64,000 bases of DNA from Bacteriovorax sp. MedPE-SWde (GTDB taxonomy: Bacteria > Bdellovibrionota > Bacteriovoracia > Bacteriovoracales > Bacteriovoracaceae). A program made the position numbers and the translations under genes. The stretch lies in the NCBI GenBank assembly GCA_001874305.1, contig MPCU01000004.1, positions 248,001 to 312,000 on the forward strand, read 5' to 3'. Positions 24,731-31,819 of this stretch are shown piece after piece. How positions within the stretch are numbered: the stretch's first letter is position 1; the number at the start of each line of letters is the position of its first letter. Below the pieces are notes generated by a model. It did not search any database. It saw only the letters and a list, made by a program, of their open reading frames with translations, and had not been told where the DNA came from.

Positions 24731-25243
24731 ATGAAGTCATTAAAAGATGTCCTTGGGGACAATGAATTTTCGAATAGAATATCACGTGCAAAAGTCAAAG
24801 ACTCAGCAGATATTTTCGATTTCCTTGAGATGATAAATAATTGGGAAAAAGTAGTTGGACCTAAACTTGTTGAACATACAATCCCTCTGAAGTTAAAAAA
24901 TAGAAACCTTACAGTCTTAACTTCCCACCCTGTATTTGCACAGCAACTTTCTTTCATGGAAACGGCAATCATCGAAAAGATTGCGAAGTGCTTTCCTTCG
25001 ATTCCGGGACAAATTAAAAAAATATTCTTTCAAGCTGATAATAGACACTTTCAACAAAAGAAAGAACTGCACTCAGTAAAGAAAGTTAAGAAAGAAGAAT
25101 TTGAGCAAAAGTGGCATAAAGAGTCTCCTCAATACAAGAGGCTTATGGCCCAGGCGAATGAATTATTTTCAGATATTACAGATGAGACAATGAAAGAATC
25201 TTTGAAATCAATTTTTATTCAATCCTCTAAGCCTGAGAAATAA
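24731..25243 (+). CDS. DUF721/DciA-like protein
   Basis: 170 residues. N-terminal 90 residues show the DciA/DUF721 pattern: W-E-K-V-V-G-P-K-L-V-E-H-T-I-P-L, then a strand ending in LTVLTSHPVFAQQLSF, and a following helix. DciA proteins help load the replicative helicase DnaB in bacteria lacking DnaC. The C-terminal part is Lys/Glu-rich and probably disordered. Divergent from lptE; its end overlaps the convergent methyltransferase gene. The ribosome site is weak. Confidence 0.7.
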   Translation: MKSLKDVLGDNEFSNRISRAKVKDSADIFDFLEMINNWEKVVGPKLVEHTIPLKLKNRNLTVLTSHPVFAQQLSFMETAIIEKIAKCFPSIPGQIKKIFFQADNRHFQQKKELHSVKKVKKEEFEQKWHKESPQYKRLMAQANELFSDITDETMKESLKSIFIQSSKPEK

Positions 25244-25786
25244 TACTTCTTTAGATCTCTTCAATACTCTTTTTTCAGCAATTCCTTTAATCGCATCATC
25301 TATTTCTTTTAATGCATCATTATCTCGAAGAACAATATAGAAGCTCCCCTTACGAGTTAAGAGAGACAATGCCTTTTTAACAAGTGCACTAATCTCTCCT
25401 GAATCGAAGGCCCGACAAAGATCTTTATTTCGATTTGGAGAGGTCCTATGGTGAGCACGATTAAAGTATGGTGGATTCATAACTATAATATCAAAGTCCT
25501 CGACCATATCAATTTTGATGAAGTCACCAACGACTACCTCTGAAAAATTCTCTGTGCGAAACTGTGATAAATTTAGTTCAATATGTTCTTTAAAATCAGT
25601 TTGTTTTTCGACAAAGCTTGCCCTTGATATATTGAGACCTTTTGAAATTTCAATTCCCACAATACCTGAACCACAACATATATCTAAAAGACTACCACCT
25701 TTAGGCGCATCTTTAATGACGAGGTTTGCAAGTTGAGTTGAGTCCTCAGAAAACTTATAGAATTTTGGTTGAGAGTATTTAAGCAT
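25208..25786 (-). CDS. N6-adenine methyltransferase, TrmN6/YfiC-like
   Basis: SAM-dependent enzyme with LLDICCGSGIVGIEIS (motif I) and NPPY (motif IV), the N6-adenine signature. In TrmN6 the target is A37 of tRNA1-Val. ATG 25786 is chosen because the protein then begins MLKYSQPKFYKFSEDS, matching the family's opening Q-P-K-x-x-F-x-x-D block; the extra 30 codons to 25876 lie inside the upstream gene. It overlaps tsaC by 8 bp. Substrate inferred from family; 192 residues, short for TrmN6. Confidence 0.72.
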   Translation of the reverse strand: MLKYSQPKFYKFSEDSTQLANLVIKDAPKGGSLLDICCGSGIVGIEISKGLNISRASFVEKQTDFKEHIELNLSQFRTENFSEVVVGDFIKIDMVEDFDIIVMNPPYFNRAHHRTSPNRNKDLCRAFDSGEISALVKKALSLLTRKGSFYIVLRDNDALKEIDDAIKGIAEKRVLKRSKEVLFLRLRGLNKN

Positions 25787-26375
25787 GATAGTGAAGATAC
25801 TTCTGTAAGACTTCTTCAATCTCTTTATGTTTCGAGCCCTTTCGAAGAAACTTATATTCACTTCCTGATAAGACAACTATTGTCGATGAATTCCCCGTTA
25901 CTTCTTTATTATAAGTAGTAGTAACAATCAGCTCGTTTGAAGCATACTTCTTCCAGAAATCCTTTGCATCAACTTCATCAGTAATAGGTTGTTCACCTGA
26001 TATATTTAAGCTAGTTGTAGTTATTGGTGCTTCAACTTCAGAAATAATATTATTAACAATTTCACTATCTAAAACTCGAATACAAACAAAGTCAGTCTCA
26101 CTAAAAGCAACACTAGGAAGATCATTCTTAAAAAGAATCTTATCTAGCCCAAAAGTAATTTCATATTGCATTAACTCTAGGATTAACTCCTTAAGAGAGT
26201 CACTTAGTTCTACATGTCCAGTTAACTGATCTACTGAGGAAAAAAGAATCGATAGAGGCTTATTTACAGGACTTTTCTTTATCTGAGATATCTTAATATA
26301 AGTCTCTTCCTTATATGCATTCCCGCCAATTCCCCACACTGTATCCGTTGGATAAATAAAGATTTTGTTACTCAT
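25779..26375 (-). CDS. tsaC: L-threonylcarbamoyladenylate synthase (TsaC/YrdC/Sua5)
   Basis: Makes threonylcarbamoyl-AMP from Thr, bicarbonate and ATP, the first step of t6A37 tRNA modification. 198 residues from ATG 26375. The family opening YPTDTVWGIGG, K-K-S-P-V-N-K-P-L-S for nucleotide contacts, S-L-N-I-S-G and the R-K-G end are present, though diverged (ICIRVLD for the usual V/LRxP). It overlaps the gene before it by 4 bp and the methyltransferase after it by 8 bp, so two tRNA-modification genes are coupled. Confidence 0.85.
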   Translation of the reverse strand: MSNKIFIYPTDTVWGIGGNAYKEETYIKISQIKKSPVNKPLSILFSSVDQLTGHVELSDSLKELILELMQYEITFGLDKILFKNDLPSVAFSETDFVCIRVLDSEIVNNIISEVEAPITTTSLNISGEQPITDEVDAKDFWKKYASNELIVTTTYNKEVTGNSSTIVVLSGSEYKFLRKGSKHKEIEEVLQKYLHYHA

Positions 26376-27427
26376 AGGATCCACCATAAAAAGAGTTTTT
26401 CTTCATAACCTAGCTTTATTAATTCAAAAAATCCATAAAGACCAAACTTATCTTTTTTAAGACCAGATAAGTAAGTATTCTTCTTTATTGTAAACGCAGG
26501 TTTTCTAAATCGTGGATCTTTTTTTGCGATATATTTCTTAAATGTCGGATTTTCAATTGCTTGTAAAACTGCCTCCACTTCATAATTTTCGTAACGTTGA
26601 AAGTTAGAAGCAATCTGAGATGATAATCTCTTTCGGATCTTTTCATTCACAGGTAGGTGGTAACGTAAGATGCCAAATTCACTAGGTATCATTTTAATTT
26701 GAGCTGGAGACTTAAAAAAGTCATATAAATATTGAGTTCTTTCAAGATTATCACTAATAGTATCGATCCAATAACTTGGATAAGATACTCCGTATGTATA
26801 ATTAGATTTATCAAATGTAATTTTAGAAACAAAGAACTCTCCTAACAAAGAGTTAATTATCTTATTTAATTCAATATCTTCAATATCCAATAATCTCTGA
26901 AAATACATTTTCTTTAAATTTTCATCACAATCAAAGTTCCATATTCTTTCAATATTCTTCATGAATAGATTCGCAAAAAACTTTCTATCTTTAAAATTTA
27001 TTTTCTTATCAATTCCAAGAGGTAAATAAACGGCAGGAATTTTTACTAACTCTGATAATACTTTATTCATTAAAAATTTGTTTCCGACCTCAAGGGCAAA
27101 GAACATTTTCATAACTAAATCAAGATAGGATACTCCCTTCACTTGTTCAAATACACCTTTAGATAAACTATGATTTTTATCTCTGCTAAGTTTATCAATA
27201 TCTCTAAAAAGGCCTATGTATCTGCTCTTTTGAACCTTATCTTTGTCTACACTTATCTTTTTGAGGAATTTATAATCTTCTTGAGTCGAAGATATTTGTT
27301 TTAATGAATTTAATAATTGGCTTCGATCCATCGACTGATCTAGCAACAACTTAATCTCCACAGGAAACTGTCCTATACATTTCTGATAGTACTCTTTCCA
27401 CTTATCAAGATTATTTGTTTTTCTCAT
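26372..27427 (-). CDS. hypothetical protein; probably the C-terminal part of the upstream GYF-membrane gene
   Basis: 351 residues, no recognised domain; helical, Lys-rich, with KKYIAKKDPRFRKPAF near the end. The ATG at 27427 has no ribosome site (a T-rich run precedes it). The frame stays open upstream for 45 codons to a run of ten A inside the preceding gene, and those codons look like real protein (KWGEVELKYNLYGHGF). I therefore infer it is made as a fusion through a -1 shift, placing these residues beyond the membrane helix, outside the cytoplasm. It could instead be a separate gene or a fresh frameshift. It overlaps tsaC by 4 bp. Confidence 0.55.
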   Translation of the reverse strand: MRKTNNLDKWKEYYQKCIGQFPVEIKLLLDQSMDRSQLLNSLKQISSTQEDYKFLKKISVDKDKVQKSRYIGLFRDIDKLSRDKNHSLSKGVFEQVKGVSYLDLVMKMFFALEVGNKFLMNKVLSELVKIPAVYLPLGIDKKINFKDRKFFANLFMKNIERIWNFDCDENLKKMYFQRLLDIEDIELNKIINSLLGEFFVSKITFDKSNYTYGVSYPSYWIDTISDNLERTQYLYDFFKSPAQIKMIPSEFGILRYHLPVNEKIRKRLSSQIASNFQRYENYEVEAVLQAIENPTFKKYIAKKDPRFRKPAFTIKKNTYLSGLKKDKFGLYGFFELIKLGYEEKLFLWWIL

Positions 27428-27571
27428 TAAAAAGAAAAAGAGACGCGTTTGGTAATCATTAATTTCATTACACTCTTTAGGGATTCCCTTGAATTCAGAG
27501 ATATTAAAACCATGACCATAGAGGTTATACTTAAGCTCTACCTCGCCCCATTTTAAAGGGATTTTTTTTTT
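27428..27571 (-). other. A10 slippery run and in-frame upstream extension (candidate programmed -1 shift)
   Basis: The minus strand carries ten A at 27571-27562. In the upstream gene they read GTA AAA AAA AAA and the frame stops three codons later (TCC CTT TAA). A -1 shift, or one extra A in the mRNA, continues as I-P-L-K-W-G-E-V-E-L-K-Y and runs without a stop into the 26372-27427 frame. A_AAA_AAA is a classic slippery heptamer, and runs of nine or more A are known sites of polymerase slippage. A homopolymer sequencing error is the plain alternative. Confidence 0.6.
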
Positions 27572-28863
27572 ACGTCGAACGACTTTTCTTGTGCTTGAGC
27601 AGAGTTAATAAGAAGAGTGTCTTTCATTCCAAAAAGCTGTTGTCCAAGAACTTGAGTATAGTAGAAGTAAACACCATATAGAATTCCAGCAATTAAAAGA
27701 ATGAAAACATACATAATTAATCGATCATTTCTTTTTGGTGCTTCAATTTCGTCGGAGTTTACCTTCTTCTTCTTTCTTCTTCTCTTTTTCTTTTTTGGGC
27801 GGGGCATTTCTTCAGGAGAAGAAGCCGTCTTTACATCACTAGACTCGATCTCTTCTACTTCTTTTACCTCAGGAATACTTTCCTCAAGGCTACTTTTTTC
27901 TTCATTTAAAATATTGTTTATATCGTCTTCTATTTCAGCTACTTCATTCTCACTTGGACTAGTATCATCTAAGCCAGAGATATCAAGATCAAGTCCATCA
28001 CTTGAATCAGACTCACTAGTCTCTTCAGGAGACGACTCGCCTAGACTCATATCGGGATACTCAAGGTCATCTTCTACAGGAAGTTGTAGAGGTCCTTCCT
28101 CCTCAGACTCAGCACTCTCTTCCACTACTTCCTCAGATGGAGAATCAAGAGAGAGCTCCACTGCAAGGTCTAGCTCTTCAACTTTTTCTTCTGCTTTACT
28201 TTCTATAGCACTGTCTTCAGTTATTTCTTTAGCCTCAGGTGTAATGAGATCGGGAAATTCAAGATCATCATCATCTGGAAAAATAGTTTCCCCTTCTTCT
28301 TCACCATCAACATCAGCGGTGCTTTCTACTTTTTGCTCTTTCTTTTCCACTGGAGTGCTAGCGACAGGAGTTGGCTTCTTATAGTCCATTTCCTTAATCT
28401 CATCAAGAAGGCTATTAGAGCTTTCATTAGAGACCATATCAGGGTAGTCGAGGTCATCATCCTCAGGGAAAACTATTGGCTCTTCATCCGCTGACTCACT
28501 AGACTCAGAAGTACTAGGTGTCGCAGGAATATCAGAGGCACTAGGAGCTTTATTAACTTCAGTACTATGTGCTGTATCTTTTAAATTTAATATTGATTCC
28601 GGAGTAACTGGCTCCACTTGTGCATTTGCAAGACTGGTAAATGCCTCAGCAACTGGATTAAAGGTTTGCTTTTGATTATCATGTAAATATTTTTGAACAA
28701 GGTCTTTCTCTTTAACCCAAAACCAATAGCCATTACCACTACAGACTTCGTCTTCGTCCGTAAGAGAACCTGAGTTAAGCAACTCAATAACCTTCTCCTT
28801 AGTCACCGGACCAAGGATCTTGTTCTGTTTAGTTCTAATTAGCCAGTTGTTTTCAGTATTCAT
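27553..28863 (-). CDS. GYF-domain single-pass membrane protein with acidic repeats
   Basis: 436 residues. A GYF_2-type module at 1-58 (W-L-I-R-T...I-L-G-P-V-T) is followed by a long, very acidic Ser/Glu-rich region. That region contains three copies of an F/L-P-x-D/E-D-D-L-x-Y/F-P-D motif (about 132, 195 and 261). A Lys/Arg-rich stop-transfer cluster (356-367) precedes one membrane helix (383-403). The ~33 residues after it end in the A10 run, so this form is probably the short product of a frameshifting gene. The layout matches the kinase at 5.1-7.1 kb (acidic linker, Lys cluster, helix). It follows mlaD by 6 bp. Confidence 0.75.
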   Translation of the reverse strand: MNTENNWLIRTKQNKILGPVTKEKVIELLNSGSLTDEDEVCSGNGYWFWVKEKDLVQKYLHDNQKQTFNPVAEAFTSLANAQVEPVTPESILNLKDTAHSTEVNKAPSASDIPATPSTSESSESADEEPIVFPEDDDLDYPDMVSNESSNSLLDEIKEMDYKKPTPVASTPVEKKEQKVESTADVDGEEEGETIFPDDDDLEFPDLITPEAKEITEDSAIESKAEEKVEELDLAVELSLDSPSEEVVEESAESEEEGPLQLPVEDDLEYPDMSLGESSPEETSESDSSDGLDLDISGLDDTSPSENEVAEIEDDINNILNEEKSSLEESIPEVKEVEEIESSDVKTASSPEEMPRPKKKKRRRKKKKVNSDEIEAPKRNDRLIMYVFILLIAGILYGVYFYYTQVLGQQLFGMKDTLLINSAQAQEKSFDVKKKSL

Positions 28864-28869
28864 TATTAT

Positions 28870-30243
28870 TTAAAGAAAAAATCCTATTAGACCTTTAAGG
28901 TCTTCATCGTTAAATTTTAAACCACCACTAAAGATAAAGTTTGCATCGTTAGATATATCTTCAGCTTGTGCTCTTAAGTAAAATGCACTTAGGATTCTCT
29001 GATCAATTGAGAATCTAATATTTGCACCAATATCATCTCTATAATCGAAAACCTCTAGAGATAATCTTGTCCCCGCAGAGAAGAAATCATAGTCAACGCC
29101 TAGACCACCAGAAGACTCAATGAATCCACCTTTAAATGACCAGTTTTGAACACGACGACCAATAACTGCCGTAAACCTATATGTGTCTTTCTTTCTCTTT
29201 TCTTCAATTTGTACTGTCTCAGTTCCACCATCGGTAGAAGTTGTTGTTTGAGTAGTAAGCTTTGGTCCAAGTTCTGAAGCAGCGATTCCTAAGATATAGA
29301 ATCTCTCAGGAGATGGAAAAATTCTTAACTCTGCAGTTGATTCACCTTTACCAGCTGTTGTATTTGCCCCTGCAAAAACTTCAACTTCAGTTCTTATATT
29401 ATCAACTTTAGAAACAATCTTTTTTACACTAGCTAAAGTTTGCTTAACTTCATCAGCGATCTCTTCTTCAACAAGAAGCTTTCCAACTGTCCCCTTACCA
29501 TTTCTTACGTCACGAACAATACTTTTTAAGTCACCCATCATATTGTCTGTTTTAGCTAAGATCTCTTTAACATCTGAGATGGCACTTTCCGGCTCATCTT
29601 TATCAAAGTGATATGCCAGTTGCTCAGAGAATCCTTCTAAGTTATCAACAATATTATTAAGTTTTTGCTCATTTCCAGTAACAACTCGCTTAAGTGTCGC
29701 TGTAACTGTTTTAGTATTACTTACAAGTTCTTTTACATCATCAAGAATTAGTTTAATTGGTGGTTTCTCACCTGGAGGAGCTATTGAGTCCTTTATAGAC
29801 TGGACAATAACCTTTACGTCCTTCATTACCTCACCAGCATCTTTAACAAGAGCTTCGACACCCCCACCTTCAACAGATTCTAAGAAAGCGTTACTAGACA
29901 GGCGTTTTTGTGAGTTACCAACATAAATCTCAAGATACTTGTCCCCTAAGAAACCAACAGACTTAATTTTAAGCTGAGAATTTTCAGTGATTTTTACTCT
30001 TTTAAGAACTTCAAAAGTAATTAATGCTTTATTTCCTTGAAGCTCAATATCTTTAATACGTCCGGCGTTAATCCCCGCTACCTTAATAGGTGTCTTTGGA
30101 AAAATACCTGAAGCATCATTAATAATAGTTCTATATGTAGCATAGTCACCAAACCCAGACTGGTTTGATGTAATAGCTAAAGACATTACTACAACTGCTA
30201 ACATTGAGCAGAGGGCCATTAACCCAACTTTAAACTCATTCAT
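28870..30243 (-). CDS. mlaD: MlaD/MCE-domain lipid-transfer protein
   Basis: 457 residues. An N-terminal membrane helix (VGLMALCSMLAVVVMSLAI) is followed by an MCE domain (about 35-120) with I-K-V-A-G-I-N-A-G-R-I and G-F-L-G-D-K-Y-L-E-I. A long helical region and a beta-rich C-terminus (about 300-457) follow, much longer than E. coli MlaD (~180). MCE rings carry phospholipids between the two membranes. The extended C-terminus may span further across the periplasm. GAGAGGG precedes the ATG. Forms an operon with mlaF and mlaE; no mlaC or mlaB homologue is visible nearby. Confidence 0.85.
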   Translation of the reverse strand: MNEFKVGLMALCSMLAVVVMSLAITSNQSGFGDYATYRTIINDASGIFPKTPIKVAGINAGRIKDIELQGNKALITFEVLKRVKITENSQLKIKSVGFLGDKYLEIYVGNSQKRLSSNAFLESVEGGGVEALVKDAGEVMKDVKVIVQSIKDSIAPPGEKPPIKLILDDVKELVSNTKTVTATLKRVVTGNEQKLNNIVDNLEGFSEQLAYHFDKDEPESAISDVKEILAKTDNMMGDLKSIVRDVRNGKGTVGKLLVEEEIADEVKQTLASVKKIVSKVDNIRTEVEVFAGANTTAGKGESTAELRIFPSPERFYILGIAASELGPKLTTQTTTSTDGGTETVQIEEKRKKDTYRFTAVIGRRVQNWSFKGGFIESSGGLGVDYDFFSAGTRLSLEVFDYRDDIGANIRFSIDQRILSAFYLRAQAEDISNDANFIFSGGLKFNDEDLKGLIGFFL

Positions 30244-30256
30244 TTAATCCCTCTCC

Positions 30257-31009
30257 CTAGAGGTTTATAAATTCTTTAACCAGTGGATGGTCAGAATTTG
30301 CAAATTCTTTTGCAGGTAAGTACTCAACAATATTACCACGATTTAAAAATGCCACATAGTCGGAAATTTCTAATGTCGCCTTAACATCGTGAGAAATTAT
30401 TATTGAAGTTAATTCATTTTCTTTATGTAGTTGACCTGTTTCAACAATTAAATCATTGACCATTTTTGTCGTGATTGGATCAAGGCCTGTAGTCGGCTCA
30501 TCATAGAGCATGATCTTTGGACTAAGGGCCAAAGCTCTAGCAAGACCAACTCTCTTTCTCATCCCACCTGACAGTTCACTTGGAAGTTTATCAAAAGAAA
30601 CTTCTTCGAGACCAACAGACTTCAGTAGACCATGGACCTTTAGCGTTATTTCTTCTTCACTAGACTTGGTAAATTCTCTTAGAGGGAATGCCACATTTCC
30701 AAAAGTAGTCATTGAATCAAAGAGTGCCGCGTATTGAAAGAGCATTCCAAAATTCTGTCTAAACTCTCTCATATCAACTTCTTCAAGTTCACTGAGATCG
30801 TTTCCTAGTACGGATATCGTTCCACTTGTTGGCTTATGAAGACCAAGTATATGCTTTAATAAAGTTGACTTTCCCGCTCCAGAAAAGCCTAGGATTGTAG
30901 TAATTTTACCTTTAGGAATATCAAAATTTAGTTCGTTTAAAACTGTATGAGTTCCAAAAGTCTTTGTGAGTTGTTCGATTCCGACGGCCGGATTTTCAAA
31001 ACTAAGCAT
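30257..31009 (-). CDS. mlaF: MlaF-like ABC transporter ATPase
   Basis: ATPase of the MCE lipid transporter. 250 residues. Walker A GFSGAGKST, Q-loop FQYAALFDSMT, signature LSGGMRKRVGLARAL, Walker B IMLYDEPTTGLDP and the H-loop (IISHD) are all intact. The F-D-S-M-T stretch after the Q-loop is typical of MlaF. AGGAGG lies five bases before the ATG. Encoded between mlaE and mlaD. Confidence 0.93.
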   Translation of the reverse strand: MLSFENPAVGIEQLTKTFGTHTVLNELNFDIPKGKITTILGFSGAGKSTLLKHILGLHKPTSGTISVLGNDLSELEEVDMREFRQNFGMLFQYAALFDSMTTFGNVAFPLREFTKSSEEEITLKVHGLLKSVGLEEVSFDKLPSELSGGMRKRVGLARALALSPKIMLYDEPTTGLDPITTKMVNDLIVETGQLHKENELTSIIISHDVKATLEISDYVAFLNRGNIVEYLPAKEFANSDHPLVKEFINL

Positions 31010-31018
31010 CCATGCCTC

Positions 31019-31819
31019 CTATAAAACCTGTACTAAAAAGCTTGTTAAAAAGTAATCAAGAACGAGAACTGAAATCATTCCCCAAACAACAGCTAGGTTT
31101 GTCCCCTTACCAACTCCCTCAGCTCCTTTTGAAACTGAGAAACCAAAGTAAGTCCCAATTATCGCTATAACAAAACCAAAGACTAGCGCTTTAATAGCAC
31201 CCTGGGCAATGTCACTAACATACATAAAGTTTCCAAGCTTAGATAAGTAGATTGATTCATCTATTAAAAGTGCCTGCGTCCCTACAATATATGATCCGAT
31301 ATTACCGATGAATAAGAAGAAAATACTTAACATTGGTACAGAAAGAGTCGCTGCCAAGATTCTTGGAACAGCGAGATATTGCATACTATTAACACCCATA
31401 ACTTCTAGGGCATCAACCTGCTCTGTTACTTTCATTGTTCCTATTTGCGCTGCCATAGCGGCTCCTGCACGTCCTGCAACAATTAACCCAGTTAACACTG
31501 GTGCAAGTTCTTTAGCTAAAGAGAGTGCAACAACTGGCCCTACAAGAGAGTCAACATTGATGAGTTTGAATCCAAAGTATGTCTGATAGGCCATAACCAT
31601 ACCAGTGAATGAACCTGCGAGAGTTATAATAAATAAACTCTTATTTCCTATAAAGTGCATCTGCTCAAAAAACAGCTTTGCCCTGTAGGGAGGTCTTACC
31701 GCCCAATAGAAAAAACTTAGAATGTATCGACAAATTAAACCAAGACCTGAAACGTTCTTTATAACGATTTTGCCGATTCCTTCCGTGAATCTTTTAAAGT
31801 TATCCATAACTAATTGCAT
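31019..31819 (-). CDS. mlaE: MlaE-like permease
   Basis: Membrane subunit of the MCE transporter. 266 residues with about five hydrophobic segments. Family blocks include GLIVAGRAGAAMAAQIGTMKV, EQVDALEVMGVN, Y-L-A-V-P-R-I-L-A and the late GAEGVGKGTN. First gene of the mlaE-mlaF-mlaD group; the gap to mlaF is 9 bp. The ATG five codons downstream is an alternative start. Confidence 0.92.
   Translation of the reverse strand: MQLVMDNFKRFTEGIGKIVIKNVSGLGLICRYILSFFYWAVRPPYRAKLFFEQMHFIGNKSLFIITLAGSFTGMVMAYQTYFGFKLINVDSLVGPVVALSLAKELAPVLTGLIVAGRAGAAMAAQIGTMKVTEQVDALEVMGVNSMQYLAVPRILAATLSVPMLSIFFLFIGNIGSYIVGTQALLIDESIYLSKLGNFMYVSDIAQGAIKALVFGFVIAIIGTYFGFSVSKGAEGVGKGTNLAVVWGMISVLVLDYFLTSFLVQVL

Follow-up and report, generated by a model that had tools for sequence, protein, structure and literature searches.

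Only scattered examples of cellular genes with functional transcriptional slippage have been described, most of them confined to one species. On the A11 tract of tssM1 the RNA polymerase adds A's at 20–25%, and of the two genes tssM1 (Citrobacter rodentium) and tssM3 (Yersinia pseudotuberculosis) one depends on slippage for its long form and the other for its short form (PMC4256274). Transcriptional slippage on A9 is described for Thermus thermophilus dnaX, with a threshold of about 9–10 A for the process (Baranov et al., PMC1088944). For the protein considered here, the described counterpart is Bd0075 of Bdellovibrio, a protein listed as predation-essential that combines a GYF-like domain in the cytoplasm with TPR domains on the extracytoplasmic side (PMC12034629).

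The window, that is, the whole 64-kb stretch of DNA analysed, contains on its minus strand a run of ten A (27571–27562), at which a GYF-like/transmembrane ORF is joined to an ORF of 398 codons in the −1 frame. The first-pass annotation had described this run, a stop of the upstream frame three codons past it, a −1 frame that stays open past the run as far as a stop at 26372 and has 45 codons before its first ATG (27427), the absence of a ribosome site at that ATG, and a location beside mlaEFD. All of these points hold: the upstream ORF (28863–27553) ends in DVKKKSL, the ATG at 27427 is preceded by a T-rich stretch without a Shine-Dalgarno sequence, and Pfam identifies MlaD, ABC ATPase and MlaE genes upstream. 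One extra A produces a single 830-codon frame across the run. The features of the locus, in the order mlaE, ABC ATPase, mlaD, GYF gene, YrdC, are as follows.

31019..31819, minus strand: mlaE (Pfam MlaE, 2.8e-73)
30257..31009, minus strand: ABC ATPase, mlaF-like (Pfam ABC_tran, 3.1e-35)
28870..30243, minus strand: mlaD-like gene (Pfam MlaD, 2.2e-14)
27553..28863, minus strand: zero-frame ORF, short form of 436 aa with GYF-like domain, acidic linker, Lys/Arg-rich patch, TM helix and short extracytoplasmic tail
28642..28845, minus strand: GYF-like (GYF_2-type) domain, probably cytoplasmic (A2 profile match; the weak Pfam GYF_2 match of this N-terminal domain is below cut-off)
27664..27720, minus strand: predicted transmembrane helix LIMYVFILLIAGILYGVYF (hydropathy scan)
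27589..27600, minus strand: A-x-A-Q motif (AQAQ), signal-peptidase-like ([AVSTIG]xAQ in relatives)
27562..27571, minus strand: putative A10 slippage run (conserved as A9–A14 in relatives)
26372..27571, minus strand: −1 frame with the predicted exported domain, entered when the mRNA gains one nucleotide or the ribosome shifts by −1
27428..27561, minus strand: coding stretch from the run to the first ATG, with beta strands and the invariant Cys34
27470..27472, minus strand: invariant Cys codon, Cys34 of the exported domain, upstream of the first ATG
27377..27379, minus strand: second invariant Cys codon, Cys65 of the exported domain
25779..26387, minus strand: Sua5/YrdC family gene, directly downstream (Pfam, 2.6e-30)
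25208..25876, minus strand: small-domain methyltransferase gene, downstream (Pfam MTS, 6.3e-11)

The run is the sole A10 of the window and, since dinucleotide shuffles give an expected count of 3.8, one A10 is on its own no excess. In the whole genome (G000, a 3.76-Mb assembly of 15 contigs), where the window occupies C10:248001–312000, pattern searches counting both strands found 8 loci with at least ten A as against 107 with exactly nine, and only one of the 8, the run at 27571–27562, joins two long ORFs. None of the 30 exact-A9 runs sampled from the 107 for ORF status lies inside an ORF, and the coding sequence of this genome strongly avoids long A-runs. The sole other A10 within a long ORF (C3:80237–80246, minus strand, locus L085) is in frame, encoding DEIKKKVNDI, and seems to form a linker joining the halves of a large protein, by eye malate-synthase-like and then serine-hydrolase-like; this is possibly a second slippage gene.

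In a first search of relatives, homologues of the downstream protein were found in 13 of 58 genomes, 12 of them with A9–A12 at the join and a −1 relation and one with a continuous frame. The family survey covers 129 genomes of Bacteriovoracaceae/Halobacteriovoraceae, among which the GYF-like domain profile finds the gene in 121 and the exported-domain profile matches 63. The layout could be classed in 115 genomes, which are kin, so that the counts are not independent. Comparison of homologues shows that both the run and the frame relation are conserved: 77 genomes from 29 genera have the two parts out of frame at an uninterrupted A9–A14 (mode A10), with a −1 relation in all but two. The run is also present in two isolates, Bacteriovorax sp. 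BSW11_IV and Halobacteriovorax marinus 36_234_T64. Both parts share one frame in 16 genomes from 9 genera (counting G006, whose domain is very divergent), 17 genomes from 6 genera have the short form only, and five genomes from five genera have two genes (counting G016, whose signal peptide is less clear than those of G031, G074, G107 and G108). Because the same arrangement recurs in 77 genomes, sequencing error is ruled out as the source of the frame break. The layout state needs many separate changes on a quick tree that is partly doubtful, with G006 and G017 on long branches and G133 auto-labelled +1 in a tie while being truly −1.

The protein appears continuous through the join. Between close pairs of genomes the changes by codon position are 67:39:182 before the run, in the zero frame, and 289:178:557 right after it, in the −1 frame, the third position being dominant in both, and coding constraint thus acts on both sides of the run in the respective frames. 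Cys34 and Cys65 are invariant in 42 domain sequences. In the AlphaFold model of the domain (pLDDT 83.9, pTM 0.82) beta strands occupy residues 6–28 and are followed by helical hairpins, and the first ATG corresponds to residue 49, after the strands. Across the relatives the distance between the run and the first ATG varies from 2 to 297 codons, and a Shine-Dalgarno-like site accompanies that ATG in 2 of 75. The first-pass annotation had named as evidence against a joined gene homologues with two separate genes and a good start at 27427; separate genes do exist, in the five genomes above, and they do not rescue the start at 27427. From the comparative evidence, conserved recoding of the gene appears near certain.

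What do the alternative layouts tell us about the products? The split relatives G031, G074, G107 and G108 have, besides the GYF gene, a domain gene that opens with a classical signal peptide, e.g. MIKPILFCLLLLSTTIQAQ, and since the domain there carries its own signal peptide, it is an exported one. In the recoded layout its sole export signal, the TM helix together with the AxAQ motif, sits in the other frame. The motif is conserved about 20 residues past the TM helix (27589–27600 in the window), and 57 of 65 junction genomes have [AVSTIG]xAQ at a distance of 4–10 residues ahead of the run, compared with 9 of 810 control windows; cleavage at this putative site might free the exported domain from the membrane. 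In the short-only relatives, which comprise nearly all of genus g14 as well as some others, the ORF stops about 10 residues past the TM helix and runs directly into the YrdC or the methyltransferase gene. Their existence means that the short form is able to stand alone, just as the in-frame relatives show the long form to be a real protein. Of the in-frame relatives, 11 of 16 retain A9–A10 at the join and five are without it, while in genus g24 sisters switch between in-frame and −1 with the run constant at ten, and the run therefore seems to be kept for its own sake. Read together, these layouts indicate that both products are real, that the domain is exported and that the run itself is under selection.

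We therefore propose, with a probability of roughly 0.78, that programmed transcriptional slippage governs expression of the gene and gives a short and a long isoform. RNA polymerase on the A10 tract would produce mRNAs with varying numbers of A. Those with ten A would be translated into the 436-residue protein with its cytoplasmic GYF-like domain, linker, TM helix and short tail, and those with one extra A (or two fewer) into the 830-residue protein, which would carry a disulphide-capable beta/alpha-helical-repeat domain past the membrane. Both isoforms would be made at a useful ratio and would cooperate at the inner membrane, where they may play the part that Bd0075 has in Bdellovibrio predation. 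The direct basis of this mechanism is the run, the two open frames, their conservation, the constraint on both sides, the absence of an internal start and the existence of short-only, long-only and two-gene relatives. The claim of the first-pass annotation that a single gene makes two forms, a short one in the membrane and a long one of about 830 residues with an exported domain, is strongly supported by comparative evidence. In-frame relatives that retain the run, relatives with the short form only and the second run before the TM helix in many relatives had not been foreseen there.

The first-pass annotation had left open whether the polymerase or the ribosome slips. The run was measured at 74 sites and is A9–A14 at every one of them, with a −1 direction in 72; at the junction alone 64 sites are −1 and one is +1, and the length there is A9 in 8, A10 in 47 and 11–14 in 10. 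The phase of the run relative to the zero frame is 0, 1 or 2 in 37, 12 and 25 sites, so what is kept is the length of a homopolymer and not a codon-phased signal. In the domain after the junction (n = 87) the longest A-run is 7–8 in 59 cases, 9 in one and 10 in none, which shows that the A_AAA_AAA heptamer is tolerated while runs of at least nine are avoided. Together with the A-run counts in G000, this gives a limit of about 9–10 A, the same as that described for transcriptional slippage (PMC1088944). Around the 74 runs SD-like motifs are scarce (7 of 74), and no stimulatory RNA structure was seen (mean z −0.03 to −0.19). With no RNA stimulator, a varying phase and a length never below nine, slippage of RNA polymerase is clearly favoured over a −1 shift of the ribosome. 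If the polymerase adds A's, as on tssM1 (PMC4256274), a −1 relation would be the easiest to repair, and the direction bias would be explained by this.

The same long form would result if ribosomes underwent programmed −1 frameshifting on an A_AAA_AAA inside the run, and this accounts for several of the observations: every one of the 74 sites has the heptamer in the zero frame, a near-uniform −1 direction is expected of a ribosome too, and the following stop is close behind (median 11 nt). However, junction runs of 7–8 A are never found, though these genes commonly contain runs of that length; A_AAA_AAG is in frame at just 4 of the 74 sites, a +1 relation occurs in G120 and G148, and the run is retained even where the frames are already joined. 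We thus consider ribosomal frameshifting unlikely. Somewhat less likely still is neutral tolerance, where a run decays to a frameshift and slippage rescues the product without regulated use, as in ‘pseudo-pseudogenes’. Such tolerance fits the wandering of the sites by lineage, to the linker in g10, g65 and G129 and into the domain in g61, and the occurrence of linker shifts in both directions, but it predicts neither the retention of the run where rescue is unneeded nor the strong −1 bias at the junction, and coding sequence otherwise excludes long A-runs.

Phase variation, with replication slippage toggling the long form within a population, is very improbable as an account of the gene. Long A-runs are mutable, and the sisters G120 and G121 do differ by one A, but random switching predicts a ratio of about 1:1:1, while the junction shows 64 (−1), about 16 (0) and 1 (+1). 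Moreover, the close pairs G113/G119, G128/G133, G093/G094 and G142/G143 match in run length at both sites, and A10 is present in in-frame and −1 relatives alike, the difference between them lying in the flanking bases and not in the run length; on these state ratios, run lengths and flanking bases we reject phase variation as the main explanation. Two separate genes, the second starting at 27427 or another internal start, are scarcely credible despite the five relatives with such a layout, since the four clear split genes bring a signal peptide that the window domain is without, and internal initiation is ruled out by the invariant Cys34 and the strands of the fold preceding the ATG and by the absence of a conserved start or Shine-Dalgarno sequence.

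Programmed transcriptional slippage may act at more than one place in some relatives. The linker before the TM helix contains A≥9 in 43 of 118 genomes and A≥10 in 35, usually in frame; the window genome has no linker run, only the junction run. The further of the two other-frame stops lies at a median of 14 nt from the linker run, compared with 43 nt for other lysine codons (among relatives that are not independent), and such close stops in both other frames suggest a third, soluble product. A second run of A9–A13 before the TM helix is seen at loci of genus g24 (L122, L123, L133, L143 and others) and of g3 (L022, L027, L029, L031). The frame changes at the linker site, in either direction, in G014, G109, G110, G129, G148, G080, G141 and G122, and at L071 (G080), L081 (G141) and L131 (G122) there are two frame changes each, the linker run giving +1 and the junction run −1. 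In genus g61 (L116–L119) the slip run lies about 60 residues inside the exported domain and the relation is still −1. A tentative reading, to which we give somewhat less than even odds and which covers relatives with both runs (e.g. genera g24 and g3) and not the window genome, is a three-isoform device: through serial poly-A slip sites flanking the TM helix, slippage of the polymerase would by itself apportion one transcript to a soluble GYF protein, an anchored GYF protein and the exported-domain protein, with tract length conserved and the frame drifting between −1, 0 and +1.

A slip tract kept over 29 genera, together with relatives in which one form alone, short or long, or a pair of genes has become fixed, represents an unusually good natural experiment. 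Why is the choice of isoform left to polymerase slippage at all? This is the question that the layouts open. The literature that we searched contained no earlier report. Annotation splits this gene and hides an exported domain in a group of predatory bacteria; the counterpart in Bdellovibrio is reported to be essential for predation.

The exported domain itself has no Pfam match (no TPR at E≤0.01 and no shared family) and no sequence match to a solved structure. A structure search with the domain model gave a best Foldseek E of 0.026 and a VIA-align Z of at most 6.5, to helical repeats; such matches speak only for a common arrangement and do not demonstrate a new fold. Bd0075 and the window gene both combine a GYF-like domain, a TM helix and extracytoplasmic helical repeats, and Bdellovibrionota GYF genes match profile A2. 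However, the Bdellovibrio gene is one continuous frame without a run and encodes canonical TPRs, whereas the window gene is recoded and its exported domain is without a Pfam match. In the rest of the phylum, Bdellovibrio-type genomes included, a GYF-TM gene is either short or a continuous GYF-TM-TPR frame without a run. Comparison of the exported domain with the Bdellovibrio TPR region gives an hhalign probability of 23.5 over 94 columns, a weak link, and since the fold matches are generic as well, we claim a shared layout and not orthology of the exported part. The long form may serve the same kind of role as Bd0075.

Among the described slippage genes, mxiE, spa13, spa33 and mxiA of Shigella (PMC5009743) are similar in that homopolymer slippage sets the ratio of two products, but they encode other proteins within a single lineage. 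The dnaX run resembles those of our in-frame relatives and the linker run in being in frame with stops near in both other frames; dnaX, however, encodes a cytoplasmic polymerase subunit and its long form is the default. The likeness to tssM1 and tssM3 (PMC4256274) is in the poly-A tract within the gene of an inner-membrane protein and in short and long forms that differ by an extracytoplasmic domain. Those two are isolated cases in two species, whereas here the tract extends over 29 genera, in an unrelated protein and often with a second run.
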